A DNA stretch of 62,433 nt from a virus, in the IMG/VR virus record IMGVR_UViG_3300042562_001671, positions 1 through 62,433 of that record; one strand, written 5' to 3'. Shown one piece after another: positions 12,760-19,704 of this stretch (within the stretch, counting starts at the first letter, position 1; each line of letters opens with the position of its first letter). The position numbers and the translations under genes were made by a program. A model generated the notes under the pieces. That model saw only the letters and a list, made by a program, of their open reading frames with translations. It ran no database searches and was not told the origin of the DNA.

Positions 12760-13602
12760 ATGACAAACGATATATTATTACTAAAAGAAGTTCTTAGTGT
12801 TCCAACCGTAACTTATCAAGAAGACCTTATGGTCGAGTTTTTACAGAATTGGTTGACCGAAAACAACATAGAACATTACGTTGATGAACACAAAAATGTT
12901 TATGCAACCAAACAAGAATTCGAAAAACTTCCTGAGGATTTTTACTTCCCTTGTGTTATTGCACATACCGACACTGTCCATAGATTGGATACTATTATTG
13001 TTCACGAAGAACAATTACCAAACGCCCAAGGTGAAATTAAAGATGCATTGAAAGCTTACAACTTAAATGGATTACCAACCGGAATTGGTGGTGATGATAA
13101 ATGTGGTGTGTTCGCTTGTTTAAAATTACTTAAAGAAGTTCCAAACTTAAAAGCCGCGTTTTTTGTATCAGAAGAAACAGGATGTCACGGTTCCAAAAAG
13201 GCGGACCCTGAATTTTTCACCAATGTTGGTTATGGAATTCAATTTGATGCACCTGAGAACTGGATGATTACCGAAAAATGTTTCAGTCAAGATTTATTCG
13301 ATAGAGAGTCAGAATTCTTTGAAGTTTGTGACCAAGTATTAACCGAAGGGATGCATAACGAAGATATGCAATACATGGTTCATCCATATACCGATGTTTA
13401 TGCGTTGAGAAGTAAATTTAGTTTTTCTTGTATCAACTTTTCAATTGGGTATTACGATTATCACACACCAAACGAATATGTGGTGATTGAGGATGTTTTT
13501 AAAGGGATTGAGATGGGAAGACAAATGATTGAAAAACTTGGAAATAAATTACACTACAAAGAAGTGGTTGAGATTCCAAGATATAATCACAGATTCTTCT
13601 AA
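12760..13602 (+). CDS. M20-family metallopeptidase
   Basis: A 280-aa peptidase of the M20 (PepT/ArgE-like) fold. The order of motifs is complete: AHTDT (His and Asp ligands), GIGGDDKCGV (bridging Asp), SEETGCHG (catalytic Glu and ligand Glu), QFDAPEN (Asp) and YYDYHTPNE (His). It is shorter than the host PepT (about 400) because the dimerisation lid is reduced. It would cut amino acids from small peptides in the cytoplasm. It sits between the tmRNA and the ClpC-like gene, so it may finish breakdown of Clp products. Confidence 0.88.
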   Translation: MTNDILLLKEVLSVPTVTYQEDLMVEFLQNWLTENNIEHYVDEHKNVYATKQEFEKLPEDFYFPCVIAHTDTVHRLDTIIVHEEQLPNAQGEIKDALKAYNLNGLPTGIGGDDKCGVFACLKLLKEVPNLKAAFFVSEETGCHGSKKADPEFFTNVGYGIQFDAPENWMITEKCFSQDLFDRESEFFEVCDQVLTEGMHNEDMQYMVHPYTDVYALRSKFSFSCINFSIGYYDYHTPNEYVVIEDVFKGIEMGRQMIEKLGNKLHYKEVVEIPRYNHRFF

Positions 13603-13683: not shown

Positions 13684-15699
13684 TTATCTACCTTTTTTAG
13701 TGATTTTGATATCCTCTCCATCCATTTTAATTTGGTAAGATTTACCTTCAATCATTTTACCGGTTAACACTTCTTCTGATAACAAATCCTCAATCTTATC
13801 TTGGATTGCTCTCTTCAATGGTCTTGCTCCGTACACTTCATCGAACCCAATCTTAGCCAAGTATTTTACTACTTCATCATTGTAGGTTACTGTGTATTTC
13901 ATATCACCAAGACGAGTCATTAATTTCTTTAACTCAATCTCTGTAATTTTTTCAATATCTTCAGCAGATAATGAATTGAAGACAATAGTGTCGTCAATAC
14001 GGTTAATAAACTCCGGAGAGAAGAAGTTTTTCATTTCTTTCATCAAGATTTGTTTTTTCGCCTCCTCATCTGCGTATGAGTTATTTGAGAAACCAATACC
14101 AGTACCGAAGTCTTGTAATTTCTTAACACCCAAGTTAGAGGTTAAGATAATCAAGGTATTCTTGAAGTTAATCTTTCTACCTAAACTATCGGTTACAAAC
14201 CCATCATCCAAGATTTGAAGTAAAACCGTGAAGACATCTTTGTGTGCTTTCTCCACCTCATCAAATAAGATAACAGAATATGGTTTGTTTTTAACTTTCT
14301 CAGTTAATAATCCACCTTCTTCATACCCAACATATCCCGGAGGTGCTCCAACCAATTTAGAGATTGAGTGTTTCTCTTGGTATTCTGACATATCCACACG
14401 GATAAGTGAATCTTCAGTTCCAAACATCTCTTTAGCCAATTGTTTTGCCAAGTGAGTTTTACCCACTCCGGTTGAACCTAAGAAGATAAATGAACCAATA
14501 GGTCTGTTAGGGTCTTTGATACCTAAACGGTTTCTCTTGATTGATTTGGCAATCTTAACAACAGCCGCGTCTTGACCAATTACTTTACCCATGATTGATT
14601 TATCTAAATTCATCAATGCTTTAGAGTCATCCGCGTCCATTTTATTCACAGGAATCTTAGTCATACTTGATACAACTTGATAAACAGTTTCAAGAACAAT
14701 AGTCTGTTTTTCCAAATCCATTTGTTTTGAAAACTTCTCTTTTTCCGCCTCAAGTTTGATTAACAATTTTTTCTCCTTATCTCTAAGTTGGGCAGCTTGT
14801 TCGTAGTTTTGTTTTTTAACTACTTCCATTTTCTCGATTTTAATCTCCGCAGCTTTCTTTTTCAATTCCTCAATAACTTCAGGAACTTTAATCTCGGTTT
14901 GCATACGAGCCCCAACCTCATCTAAGATATCAAACGCTTTATCCGGGAACTCACGGTCGGTGATATAACGGTCCGCCAATTTAACGCAAGTTTCAATAAC
15001 TTCATCACTATACAATACCTTGTGGTATGATTCGTATTTATCACGAACATTTTTAAGTATTTCGATTGTTTCCTCAACTGTTGATGGTTCCACCACTACT
15101 TTTTGGAATCTACGTTCCAATGCTCCGTCTTTCTCAATGTTTTTACGGAACTCGTCAAGAGTTGTTGCTCCGATACATTGAACCTCACCACGAGCAAGTG
15201 CTGGTTTGAAGATGTTTGAACCATCCATTGAACCTGATGAGTTACCCGAACCCACCAAAGTATGAATCTCATCAATAAACACGATGATGTTTGGATTAGC
15301 ACTTAGTTCTTCGATAATCACTTTCATTCTTTCCTCAAATTGTCCACGGTACTTGGTACCTGCAACAACTGAAGTTAAGTCAAGGTTTACGATTCTTTTG
15401 TCCACTAAGTTTCTTGGACATTCACCACTTACGATTTTCATGGCAAGACCTTCAACAAGTGCTGTTTTACCACACCCCGGTTCACCTAAAATAATAGGGT
15501 TATTCTTTTTTCTACGAGAAAGGATTTGTGCGATTCTCAAAATCTCGGCATCTCTACCAATTACAGGGTCTAATTTACCTGCCTCCGCTAGTTTGTTTAA
15601 ATCTCTACTGAAATTGTCTAATACAGGAGTATTTGTGTCCATAGCTTGTTTTTGTGCTCTGTTACCTGATTTGTCGTTTTCGTCCATTAAGTCGTTCAT
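13684..15699 (-). CDS. clpC: ClpC-type AAA+ unfoldase without N-domain
   Basis: A 671-aa protein with two AAA+ modules. D1 has GEPGCGKT (residues 72-79) and VFIDEIH. D2 has GSTGVGKT and VILFDEVEKA. TPVLDNFSRDLNKLAEAGKLDP and a UVR-like middle (NYEQAAQLRDKEKKL) identify ClpC rather than ClpB. The GTGIGFSN segment near residue 535 is the [LIV]-G-F loop that docks on ClpP, absent from ClpB. The double Clp-N domain at the start of host ClpC (about 840 aa) is missing. It should feed proteins to host ClpP. Divergent from it is a UVR-domain gene that could be its adaptor. Confidence 0.9.
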   Translation of the reverse strand: MNDLMDENDKSGNRAQKQAMDTNTPVLDNFSRDLNKLAEAGKLDPVIGRDAEILRIAQILSRRKKNNPIILGEPGCGKTALVEGLAMKIVSGECPRNLVDKRIVNLDLTSVVAGTKYRGQFEERMKVIIEELSANPNIIVFIDEIHTLVGSGNSSGSMDGSNIFKPALARGEVQCIGATTLDEFRKNIEKDGALERRFQKVVVEPSTVEETIEILKNVRDKYESYHKVLYSDEVIETCVKLADRYITDREFPDKAFDILDEVGARMQTEIKVPEVIEELKKKAAEIKIEKMEVVKKQNYEQAAQLRDKEKKLLIKLEAEKEKFSKQMDLEKQTIVLETVYQVVSSMTKIPVNKMDADDSKALMNLDKSIMGKVIGQDAAVVKIAKSIKRNRLGIKDPNRPIGSFIFLGSTGVGKTHLAKQLAKEMFGTEDSLIRVDMSEYQEKHSISKLVGAPPGYVGYEEGGLLTEKVKNKPYSVILFDEVEKAHKDVFTVLLQILDDGFVTDSLGRKINFKNTLIILTSNLGVKKLQDFGTGIGFSNNSYADEEAKKQILMKEMKNFFSPEFINRIDDTIVFNSLSAEDIEKITEIELKKLMTRLGDMKYTVTYNDEVVKYLAKIGFDEVYGARPLKRAIQDKIEDLLSEEVLTGKMIEGKSYQIKMDGEDIKITKKGR

Positions 15700-15872
15700 A
15701 GTTTTCTAATTTTATTTTACAAAGGTCCATCAAATTTTGTTCTTATCCTAATTTTTAGACAAATTGTCAGTAAATATTTTTTTTACCTGACATATTGACA
15801 TATTTATTCGAATGGTATATTATTTGAATACGACAAAGGTATAAAATAAATCTGAATTAAAAAAATTAAATT
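15700..15872. promoter_or_regulatory. Divergent promoter region between clpC and UVR gene
   Basis: On the plus strand TTGACA (15795) is followed by TATATTATTTG (from about 15816), facing the UVR gene. In the minus sense a weak GACCTTTG box lies close to the clpC start. Both genes may be switched on together. The ACCTGACATATTGACATATT stretch repeats GACATATT and could be an operator. Confidence 0.45.
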
Positions 15873-16250
15873 ATGTTTGGAAACGAAAAAAATTTTAATG
15901 ACATTTTAAGAGCGTTCGATGATATGTTCGCTCAGTTCGATTCTCGTTTAGGAGAATGGAAAGCGCAAACTAAAGTATCTGAAGATGGTACAATGAAAGT
16001 TACTACATATTATAGGAGTAATGAACCAAAAAAATCTAAAGAGAATACAGGTCTAAAACACCAATTAGAATTAGCTATTGAAAATGAAGACTTTGAAAAG
16101 GCGGTTGAGATTAGAGACCAAATTAAAAAATTGGAATCTAATCAAGAGGCAATCAATAAACTTGAAGAAGAATTAAAACAATCAATTAAAGAACACAACT
16201 TTGAAAGGTCGATTGAAATTCGTGACGAGTTGAAAGGATTAAGAAAGTAA
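15873..16250 (+). CDS. UVR-domain protein, possible ClpC adaptor
   Basis: A 125-aa protein with two UVR motifs: AIENEDFEKAVEIRDQIKKLE (about 70-92) and SIKEHNFERSIEIRDELKGLR (about 103-125). The N-terminal half is a helical segment (NDILRAFDDMFAQFDSRL). UVR motifs occur in UvrB, UvrC, ClpC and the ClpC adaptor McsA. The protein has no nuclease or zinc fingers. Because it is divergent from a ClpC gene with its own UVR motif, I infer that it binds ClpC and chooses substrates or controls assembly. It ends at a strong terminator. Confidence 0.75.
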   Translation: MFGNEKNFNDILRAFDDMFAQFDSRLGEWKAQTKVSEDGTMKVTTYYRSNEPKKSKENTGLKHQLELAIENEDFEKAVEIRDQIKKLESNQEAINKLEEELKQSIKEHNFERSIEIRDELKGLRK

Positions 16251-16253
16251 AAA

Positions 16254-16281
16254 GAAACCCCGCCCAATAGGTGGGGTTTTA
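16254..16281. terminator. Convergent terminator
   Basis: AAACCCCGCC-CAATA-GGTGGGGTTTT lies between the plus UVR gene and the minus sulfotransferase gene. Confidence 0.75.
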
Positions 16282-16953
16282 TCTTTCATATCCAAAATTA
16301 TCAAAATCTTCTGAAAATAAATTTTGAATAATTAATTTATTTTGAGGTGTTTTATGTGTTTCGTAATCAATATTCTCTGGGTTCAGATTAATTTGATATA
16401 AAGGAGATAGAGGTAAATTAATTAAATTACTTAACGGGGTTATATCGTTGGTTAAATCTTCTAATTTGAAATGATAGAAATTACAATCTACATTTTTCCA
16501 ACTACTTTGTGTTTGATAAAACCGGGTACCTCCCCATGACTTTTTATTCTCTATAACATAGTTAATGTGTGTTGAATTTCCATAAAAGTCCTCAATAAAA
16601 TTTTCAGAATTAATTGTTGAGTTTAGATGAACTAAAAATTGGTCAAAGGTATATCCACTAATTGGAACATTTGACTCAAAATCAGGTCGATTAAAAATTC
16701 TAATTTGATGGTAATATCCGGATATTATTTTATCATAAGGATTTCTAGTTACTTGTATAACTTTATATCCGTCAAGAGACTCAATATCGTAAGCAACCAT
16801 AATTTCGTCTAATTTTAAATGAAGTTTTGGTGTAAGATATGTGTTATTTTGAGAGTCTTCAATAAACCCATTATTATTTAAATTATTGCGTAAAGAATTA
16901 GACGCAGTTTTTGGAGGGTATAAAAATATTATTTTTTGTGTTTTAGATATCAT
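16279..16953 (-). CDS. Sulfotransferase-family protein
   Basis: IIFLYPPKTASNSLRN is the 5'-phosphosulfate loop (KTAS) and VIQVTRNPYDKIISGYY is the 3'-phosphate binding motif of PAPS-dependent sulfotransferases. The length of about 224 aa suits the compact carbohydrate-type enzymes. I place the start at the second Met because the first is deep in the upstream gene; the 11-base overlap still couples them. It would move sulfate from PAPS to a sugar or tyrosine acceptor. Its partner gene is an Asp/Asn hydroxylase, so both may modify the virion or host proteins. Confidence 0.8.
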   Translation of the reverse strand: MISKTQKIIFLYPPKTASNSLRNNLNNNGFIEDSQNNTYLTPKLHLKLDEIMVAYDIESLDGYKVIQVTRNPYDKIISGYYHQIRIFNRPDFESNVPISGYTFDQFLVHLNSTINSENFIEDFYGNSTHINYVIENKKSWGGTRFYQTQSSWKNVDCNFYHFKLEDLTNDITPLSNLINLPLSPLYQINLNPENIDYETHKTPQNKLIIQNLFSEDFDNFGYER

Positions 16954-17512
16954 ATGTTTCAAATAAAGATTCTTCAATCCAATCAACAATTAGATGTATT
17001 CTATCTGTGTTCCCAAAATTATCAACGGAATGTTTTTGTTTATCGTTGTTAATTTCCCATAGCTCACCTAATCTTAGATTTCTTTTATCATCACCTACCG
17101 TAAAAAAACAATCTTCATTTGTTTGTATTGGTATGTGAATTCTTCGACAAATAACTAAACTAAACCCCACAATATCAACATGAGGTCTAATAGATTCTTT
17201 GGCAGTTAACTTAACTAACAATGCTCTCATTATTCTACCATTCTCACCTGTGTTGAGTTTAATTATTTCCTCAATTTTGGTAATCTCTTCTTTAAATAAA
17301 GGATAATGATTTGTTGGCATTATTTTTAAATGGTTAAAATTGAATGACTTATCAAAAATAATCGGAATTGTTTTTGTGTGGACGTGTTCACTACCATACC
17401 TTTTTTGTCTATCACTAAATTCGTCCCAATCCAAATTATTGTCGATGATTATTTTTAAAATATTCTCGACATTGTAATCTCCGTGTTTAATAAATGTTTC
17501 AGTTACGTCCAT
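16943..17512 (-). CDS. Aspartyl/asparaginyl beta-hydroxylase-like 2OG-Fe(II) oxygenase
   Basis: RPHVDIVGFSLVICRRIHIPI holds the HxD iron ligands. ELWEINNDKQKHSVDNFGNTDRIHLIVDW holds the distal His and the Arg that grips 2-oxoglutarate. This is the catalytic core of the Asp/Asn hydroxylase family, about 189 aa here. I chose the Met at 17512, next to a TATTTATT palindrome. It hydroxylates a protein side chain or a free amino acid; the substrate is unknown. It is translationally coupled to the sulfotransferase. Confidence 0.8.
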   Translation of the reverse strand: MDVTETFIKHGDYNVENILKIIIDNNLDWDEFSDRQKRYGSEHVHTKTIPIIFDKSFNFNHLKIMPTNHYPLFKEEITKIEEIIKLNTGENGRIMRALLVKLTAKESIRPHVDIVGFSLVICRRIHIPIQTNEDCFFTVGDDKRNLRLGELWEINNDKQKHSVDNFGNTDRIHLIVDWIEESLFETYDI

Positions 17513-17517
17513 TGTTA

Positions 17518-17525
17518 TATTTATT
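17518..17525 (+). promoter_or_regulatory. Late-type box TATTTATT between divergent genes
   Basis: It lies 5 bases before the plus-strand ATG at 17530. On the other strand AATAAATA lies just before the minus gene at 17512. Confidence 0.45.
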
Positions 17526-17529
17526 AAAT

Positions 17530-17862
17530 ATGAGACCATTTGAAAATTTTTTAGTTAGTAGTGTTGGGTTACAACGCATAATCGAAATATATCTTAAAAT
17601 AAGGCAATATTTCCAATCAGAAGGGTGGAGTGAAAAGGATTTAGAAAGTCCACCATATTACTCGGCTCAATTAATGACTCTTCATGAAAAATTTGGTGGT
17701 GAAATAAGAGATTTACTTCGCCAGATGAAGGACTTAGGTTTTGAGGTAGAAAAAGAGGATTTTAATGAATACTTAAAACCTATTTTACAAAACATAAACG
17801 AACTAACACCGCTAAGCGATGGGGATTACAAGAGAGGAAATCAAGGGGACGAAGATTATTAA
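17530..17862 (+). CDS. Unknown 110-aa protein
   Basis: The protein starts MRPFENFLVSSVGLQRIIEIY and has helical stretches (KIRQYFQSEGWSEKDLES; LRQMKDLGFEVEKEDFNEYL). There is no recognised domain. The ATG at 17530 follows a late-type box. Its end overlaps the KTSC gene by 44 bases in another frame, which is unusually long and suggests tight coupling. Confidence 0.6.
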   Translation: MRPFENFLVSSVGLQRIIEIYLKIRQYFQSEGWSEKDLESPPYYSAQLMTLHEKFGGEIRDLLRQMKDLGFEVEKEDFNEYLKPILQNINELTPLSDGDYKRGNQGDEDY

Positions 17863-18858: not shown

Positions 18859-19704
18859 ATGGCATTCGTTACATATCTTATAGCACCTTGCGCGGGTGGT
18901 TCATCACTAACCGTAGAATTTAACAGTTCATCACTTCCAGCAGTGGGAGGAAATTATTATTTAACATTCACAGGTGTAACAACTCAGGGATGTTATGAGG
19001 TGGTTGATACTGCGGAGCCAGGAACAGGTTCAGATTATGTTGCAACAATGTCAACAAATTATGGTGATTGTTCAACTTGTTTTTCTGTAAATCCAACACC
19101 AACACCAACACCGACTCAAACTTCAACACCAACCAATACCCCAACTCCATCGGTAACTGCGACTAATACCTCAACTCCAACACCAACTCAAACTCCAACT
19201 CAAACTCAAACTCAGACTCAGACAGGTACACCAACAAATACTCCAACAAATACACCAACACCATCTGTAACGGCAACAAATACTCAAACTCCTACTCCAA
19301 CAAATACGCCAACTAATACGAGTACACCAACAAATACTCCGACTAACACAAGCACTCAAACACCTACACCTACAAACACACCGACTAATACAGGTACTCC
19401 AACTAGTACCCCAACAAATACACCAACAAATACGGGTACACCAACAAATACGCCGACAAACACACCAACACCAACACAAACTCAAACACCATCACCAAGT
19501 CCATATCCATTAACAGGATATAGTGTGGATAATCAATACGCGTATACTGTTGAAATATTAGGTAATTTTAGTGGTGGGTCAATTACTGAGGGAGGACCGG
19601 CAAATGGAATTGCACCACACCCTATCTATACCGACGCATATGGAGTACCATTTGCTCAGTTAAATGCAATTACGTTAGGTGGATTTAACGGATTAAATAA
19701 TTAA
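18859..19704 (+). CDS. Thr/Pro-repeat virion surface protein
   Basis: Residues 1-80 form a Cys-bearing beta-rich head ([17 protein letters not shown]). Residues about 80-215 are a stalk of [12 protein letters not shown] units. The last 65 residues form another folded part ([20 protein letters not shown]). A Thr/Pro stalk between two beta domains is typical of extended surface fibres or head decorations. Its many Thr residues could be O-glycosylated, which fits the phage's many glycosyltransferases. It opens the head operon after a late-type box. Confidence 0.65.
19098..19500 (+). repeat. In-frame 6-12 bp tandem repeats coding for Thr-Pro units
   Basis: Units such as ACACCAACA and AATACTCCA recur for about 400 bases. 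They encode the Thr/Pro stalk. Synonymous changes between units show that the protein repeat is under selection. Repeat length may vary between isolates. Confidence 0.8.

Follow-up and report, generated by a model that had tools for sequence, protein, structure and literature searches.

Genes at the clpC locus and features of the ATPase

The window, meaning the whole stretch of DNA analysed here (62,433 nucleotides), is a 62 kb fragment of a larger phage genome. The phage is large and its host is probably a member of the Bacteroidota; similarity of the MCP was found to Flavobacterium phage immuto and LR756508. On the minus strand of the window lies a gene for a ClpC ATPase without the N-terminal domain (NTD), which is convergent with an M20-family peptidase gene and divergent from a gene for a small protein with two UVR motifs. 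A pair of candidate palindromic operators separates the two divergent genes (Table 1). The peptidase may belong to the same module as clpC. Two ORFs beside the UVR gene, one sulfotransferase-like (16279-16989) and one Asp/Asn beta-hydroxylase-like (16943-17539), occur in 3 and 6 of 80 loci, respectively. The ORF at 18859-19704 contains a long Thr/Pro-rich repeat (TPTPTNTPT) and perhaps codes for a virion surface or fibre protein.

Table 1. Position of genes, motifs and candidate regulatory sites in the window
Feature	Position	Strand	Basis
M20-family peptidase, convergent with clpC in 75/80 loci	12760..13602	+	PHROG 4191 peptidase
NTD-less ClpC ATPase, 671 aa, two AAA+ rings and M-domain	13684..15699	-	Pfam, PHROG and PDB matches, no Clp_N, conserved start
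ClpP-docking loop GIGF, residues 534-537 (IGF 535-537)	14089..14100	-	motif and alignment
Walker A of D2, GSTGVGKT, residues 408-415	14455..14478	-	motif and alignment
M-domain UVR motif, residues 280-312	14764..14862	-	Pfam; alignment including 6em8
Walker A of D1, GEPGCGKT, residues 72-79	15463..15486	-	motif and alignment
N-terminal tail, residues 1-24, in place of bacterial NTD and linker (~160-200 residues)	15628..15699	-	tail kept in relatives; bacterial lengths
Candidate palindromic operator, copy 1, AGACAAATTGTCA / TGACAATTTGTCT	15757..15769		conserved position
Candidate palindromic operator, copy 2, TGACATATTGACA / TGTCAATATGTCA, 31 bp from copy 1	15788..15800		conserved position
UVR protein, 125 aa, N-terminal helix, beta-hairpin and two UVR motifs, divergent to clpC	15873..16250	+	Pfam UVR twice, family alignments, linkage, AlphaFold2
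UVR repeat 1, residues 61-88; F74, R81, D82	16053..16136	+	family alignment
UVR repeat 2, residues 97-124; F110, R117, D118	16161..16244	+	family alignment

Comparison with Pfam identified D1 (AAA, AAA_lid_9), the UVR motif, D2 (AAA_2) and ClpB_D2-small in the ATPase, while no match to Clp_N was obtained. The best solved relatives are the ClpC proteins of S. aureus and B. subtilis, with nearly full-length alignments (E values 1e-221 to 1e-213) that begin at about residue 147 of these proteins, just past their NTD. Two AAA+ modules, a short M-domain with UVR motif and a GF loop in D2 are typical of ClpC and are all present; the double repeat of Clp_N is absent, and the protein is hence classed not as a standard ClpC but as a derivative of this lineage without NTD. 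Assignment to ClpB/Hsp104, which are marked by a long M-domain and the lack of a ClpP loop, was rejected, since the best alignments are with ClpC, the GF loop is present and the TIGR03346 score is under the cut-off.

Essentially all of the 83 aligned phage sequences retain the Walker A and B motifs, the pore loops KYRG and GYVG and the arginine fingers. The M-domain tip residues Y299, R306 and D307 correspond in the alignment to F436, R443 and D444 of S. aureus ClpC, with Y/F, R and D each found in 83/83 sequences. The first-pass annotation had expected the IGF loop near residue 535, where it was indeed found, and all 80 aligned sequences that reach this site keep a hydrophobic residue followed by GF. 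Compared to bacterial ClpC (B. subtilis, S. aureus, Bacteroidota), the phage protein shares the two AAA+ rings, the UVR M-domain with its F/Y-R-D tip, the pore loops and the GF loop, and is 56-60% identical to ClpC of Bacteroidota. It differs from them in the lack of Clp_N, in its short acidic/Lys-rich tail, in being encoded by a phage and in forming a long-branch clade of its own.

Loss of the N-terminal domain

The 80 closest bacterial ClpC proteins all belong to Bacteroidota, are 842-906 aa long and carry ~160-200 residues in front of the region shared with the phage protein. In the phage relatives, this part is replaced by an acidic/Lys-rich tail (MNDLMDxxDK...), which is conserved together with its ATG. 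The complete ORFs among the best 80 relatives in IMG/VR (66-96% identity) code for 664-719 aa, the longest of them because the mechanical start sits upstream of the conserved ATG. Upstream of the ATG in the window, the frame is filled with stops and contains no start that would restore Clp_N, and a separate or split Clp_N gene was found in none of 37 phage records, including records of 309 and 321 kb. Judged from these sequences, the absence of the NTD is real and old, and not an artefact of truncation. The description of the protein in the first-pass annotation as a ClpC without NTD, for which no upstream start could bring the domain back, is thereby borne out. Its placement of the start at TPVLDNFSRDL was right in that the protein sets in directly after the position of the NTD, but 23 residues precede TPVLDNF.

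In the phylogenetic tree, the phage proteins fall together in a single, long-branched clade (support 100/100), which adjoins the sampled ClpC proteins of Bacteroidota and does not fall within them. Recent capture from a flavobacterial host, an origin that the first-pass annotation had raised for checking, is not supported by this position. The huge phages LR745206 and LR756502 likewise encode ClpC proteins without NTD (701 and 707 aa, 57% identical). These group with ClpC of Bacteroidota and not with the present clade, indicating a probably independent loss of the domain, although a tree joining them with this clade was only marginally rejected (p-AU 0.046). NTD-less ClpC-like ATPases of 648-707 aa were also observed in huge uncultured phages (L180, L181, L182 and L185; records of 484-642 kb).

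The exchangeable slot beside clpC and the palindrome pair

Both repeats of the UVR protein carry the F/Y, R, D pattern of the ClpC M-domain tip. The AlphaFold2 model shows a helix, a beta-hairpin and the two repeats at weak confidence (pLDDT 61-65); it yielded no significant fold match, and a deeper alignment did not improve it. UVR motifs are also present in UvrB, UvrC and BFN-type proteins. No cysteine is present in 52/58 members of the family, and the zinc-binding cysteine motifs of McsA are lacking, whereas a C-terminal UVR motif as in McsA is found in the form of two repeats, with a weak match to the NCBIfam McsA model (42/210 bits). Neither a YccV nor a DUF151 domain was detected with Pfam. 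A cellular orthologue was sought in 270 Bacteroidota genomes and not found: the matches were confined to single UVR motifs, located inside BFN-type proteins in the two cases examined. The search among named phages gave no match either.

When the UVR protein alone was used as query, 80 loci were obtained. In all 75 of them with the flank present clpC is divergent, with a gap of 169-218 bp between the two genes. Since all loci stem from one phage clade, part of this linkage is inherited. The wider gene order is conserved as well, the M20 peptidase and KTSC each being found in 75/80 clpC loci.

The position divergent to clpC does not always hold a UVR gene. Across 80 clpC loci this slot contains UVR in 39, Hsp20 in 20 and DnaK in one (L079); no partner was recognised in 18, and two loci are cut. 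Three examples of Hsp20 or DnaK in the slot were confirmed with Pfam. UVR and Hsp20 never occur together in any of the 80 loci, all 7 Hsp20 genes detected in whole records are located in this slot, and at least 12 changes of slot content were counted on the ClpC tree. The strongest hint at a role of the slot for ClpC is this repeated exchange of proteostasis genes at a single position, while the 18 loci without recognised partner indicate that a partner is dispensable in some phages. Tip residues switching with the type of slot were looked for and rejected, as the M-domain tip is constant in the 83 phage sequences.

Between clpC and the slot gene, a palindrome with the consensus TGACA-N3-TGTCA is usually found twice; the two copies in the window deviate from it by one mismatch each. 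Within the window alone, matches to such a palindrome are no commoner than expected by chance, so that the case for an operator rests on position and conservation. With at most one mismatch, the palindrome was found in 36/36 loci with UVR, 18/20 with Hsp20 and 1/1 with DnaK, compared to 0/18 with an empty slot (55/57 occupied versus 0/18 empty), while about 0.16 loci were expected from shuffled sequences. The 13.5 kb upstream of clpC contain 59 exact sites, the remaining 899 kb of the loci none. The spacings of the copies cluster at 20-22, 29-32 and 38-43 bp, corresponding to two, three and four helical turns. Slot and palindrome change together in 5/5 independent pairs on the tree (p 0.0625, which is the minimum for five pairs). 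These values point to paired operators for a putative binding protein, through which clpC and its partner gene would be co-regulated.

A regulon extending over the phage genome was rejected, as 14 of the 16 exact sites in 16 large records lie upstream of clpC and the other two within clpP ORFs. The classic Bacteroidetes promoter TAnnTTTG was rejected for clpC: it was found 19 times compared to 6.7 expected, but only in a quarter of the loci. Weaker similar palindromes were observed 56-172 bp upstream of hsp20 in Bacteroidota loci (L281, L286, L298, L299 and L306). Of 28 host hsp20 upstream regions, 5 contain a site with at most one mismatch, compared to 0.3 expected; a palindrome shared with heat-shock genes of the host is possible and is regarded as a lead.

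The protease partner and the proposed control of ClpC

No ClpP is encoded within the 62 kb window. Record G316 overlaps the first 16.6 kb of the window, is 99.88% identical to it across 16,593 bp and encodes a ClpP of 248 aa about 7.8 kb past the left edge of the window; this virus encodes its own ClpP. Among large relatives, ClpP was found in 27/42, namely in 15/30 of a first set and in 12/12 of a second set that was picked through the UVR gene. In the 15 records of the first set, the gene always lies 12-30 kb downstream of clpC and on the same strand, and most records of this set without ClpP end short of that distance. Four relatives with 68-70% identity (L042, L068, L074 and L078) lack ClpP despite 30-47 kb of downstream sequence, showing that an own ClpP is not universal. 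The catalytic triad S/H/D is intact in 15/15 relatives aligned, and the ClpP of G316 has the same GMCASMG, MTHMV and RNDKW segments with its Ser-His-Asp triad.

ClpP of the window subclade (L099, 1366-2109; G316/L334) shares only 52-60% identity with its counterparts in sister phages, the ClpC proteins of which are mostly 75-87% identical. It also has unusual residues around the histidine (MTHMVSHG compared to MLHQSSG). On one reading, clpP of this subclade may have been replaced or may be evolving fast.

In S. aureus, ClpC with an engineered NTD deletion (dN-ClpC) loses the resting state and binds ClpP without an adaptor (PMC12583610). The deletion mutant forms head-to-head rods via its M-domain tips, and these contacts limit its activity: casein and GFP-ssrA are degraded only once the tip carries the F436A mutation (PMC12583610). 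The phage protein resembles dN-ClpC in the same domain cut, with a residual linker followed by D1 and an intact M-domain, but it is natural and conserved throughout a clade, is accompanied by its own ClpP and has a UVR or Hsp20 gene adjoining. Lacking the NTD, phage ClpC should neither be locked in the resting state that this domain stabilises nor be subject to adaptors that act through it. The first-pass annotation had predicted a changed choice of substrates, which captures a part of the effect, whereas the deletion in S. aureus mainly destroys the resting state (PMC12583610). Since the M-domain tip is retained, head-to-head contacts would, by analogy with dN-ClpC, have to break before degradation. 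Phage ClpC would form planar hexamers that dock via GIGF on ClpP, most probably that of the phage, and would serve as unfoldase in a ClpCP protease encoded by the phage. We consider it probable that the phage runs such a ClpCP, in which the M-domain contacts are under the control of a co-regulated helper.

Alternatively, NTD-less rings paired head to head as in ClpL, together with an sHsp, DnaK or the UVR protein, could hold or disaggregate proteins for virion assembly independently of ClpP. The ring-pairing tip residues are kept, dimers of dN-ClpC rings have been likened to ClpL (PMC12583610), and the slot swaps with Hsp20 and DnaK, both of which are disaggregation partners. Against this stand the ClpP loop in every sequence that reaches it and the presence of an own clpP in most large records, and we regard a ClpP-independent chaperone as rather unlikely. 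To our knowledge, ClpL and ClpB have no ClpP-docking loop, which counts further against it.

The GF loop of the phage protein matches those of host ClpC (GVGF/GIGF) and is also kept in the relatives without ClpP in 30-47 kb downstream, as would be expected if phage ClpC hijacked the ClpP of the host and the phage ClpP were a separate or mixed partner. The ClpP of this virus and of 27/42 large relatives, with the triad intact in the 15 aligned, argues against such hijacking, as does the short length of most ClpP-less records, which do not reach clpP; we consider it unlikely. The earlier expectation that the protease partner is kept holds with regard to the intact loop, but it had assumed host ClpP for a virus with a ClpP of its own.

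For a phage-run ClpCP, the UVR protein with its two tip motifs is most likely an activator or adaptor that binds the M-domain; it would engage the tips and thereby switch on or load the protease. Its relevance to ClpC, suspected from the outset, is in line with the strong enrichment of chloroplast UVR-domain proteins and ClpF among CLPC1 interactors, which supports UVR as a ClpC-binding module (PMC8889267). In sister phages, Hsp20 or DnaK takes its place and probably delivers unfolded substrates. Candidates for such substrates are misfolded proteins of the capsid and tail, or proteins of the host. In a tentative version of this model, favoured less than the general one, NTD-based control of ClpC was replaced by a separate protein with two tip copies under a paired operator, which competes for the head-to-head contacts and switches ClpCP on or couples substrates to it. 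We know of no cell in which ClpC is controlled in this manner.

Mimicry of the M-domain tip suits capping or cross-linking equally well, and host ClpC has the same tip, so the UVR protein might instead act as a brake on phage or host ClpC, inhibiting or timing it by capping or locking its M-domains; the shared candidate operator and the replacement by chaperones suit a helper better, and a brake is doubtful. A neighbour without any relation to ClpC, such as a UVR protein of DNA repair that is linked by inherited gene order like the likewise conserved M20 peptidase and KTSC genes, is very unlikely, because the slot content changes, and does so to proteostasis genes, and the palindromes track its occupancy.

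Clp ATPases, ClpP, ClpS, Hsp20 and DnaK are known from large phages (PMC7824862; PMC12619734), including ClpA/ClpP in jumbo phages (PMC7824862) and the ClpA-type VOG02072 in the shared VOG set of moraphages (PMC12619734), and sHsps are known from cyanophages (PMC3827213). Like the present phage, the moraphages and jumbo phages are large and aquatic with predicted Bacteroidota hosts, and some encode DnaK/DnaJ/HSP20; the available parts of these descriptions contain neither NTD loss nor pairing with an own ClpP, a UVR protein, slot swapping or an operator (PMC12619734; PMC7824862). McsA, ClpF, EXE1/2 and other UVR partners of ClpC are likewise small UVR-motif proteins linked to ClpC, from which the phage protein differs by almost no zinc cysteines, no YccV/DUF151 by Pfam and two UVR repeats. 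SPO1 Gp53 is also a ClpC adaptor on the phage side, but it acts on ClpC of the host B. subtilis, whereas the present phage brings ClpC itself (PMC6873191). In the literature searched, no description was found of the missing NTD, of the UVR protein as partner, of the exchange of genes in the slot or of the paired palindrome.

Taken together, with its own ClpC and ClpP and a clpC control region shared with a swappable helper, the phage seems to carry out and regulate protein quality control by itself while it infects the cell. As recent structural studies have shown, engineered removal of the NTD unlocks the resting state and leaves the M-domain contacts as the last brake. The phage clade has kept that very cut over a long evolutionary time, alongside an own ClpP and a small protein bearing the motif of the brake, and is thus a natural system in which to test how ClpC becomes active when the NTD is missing. 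This suggests that large phages run a self-contained, regulated proteolysis and chaperone module inside their hosts.
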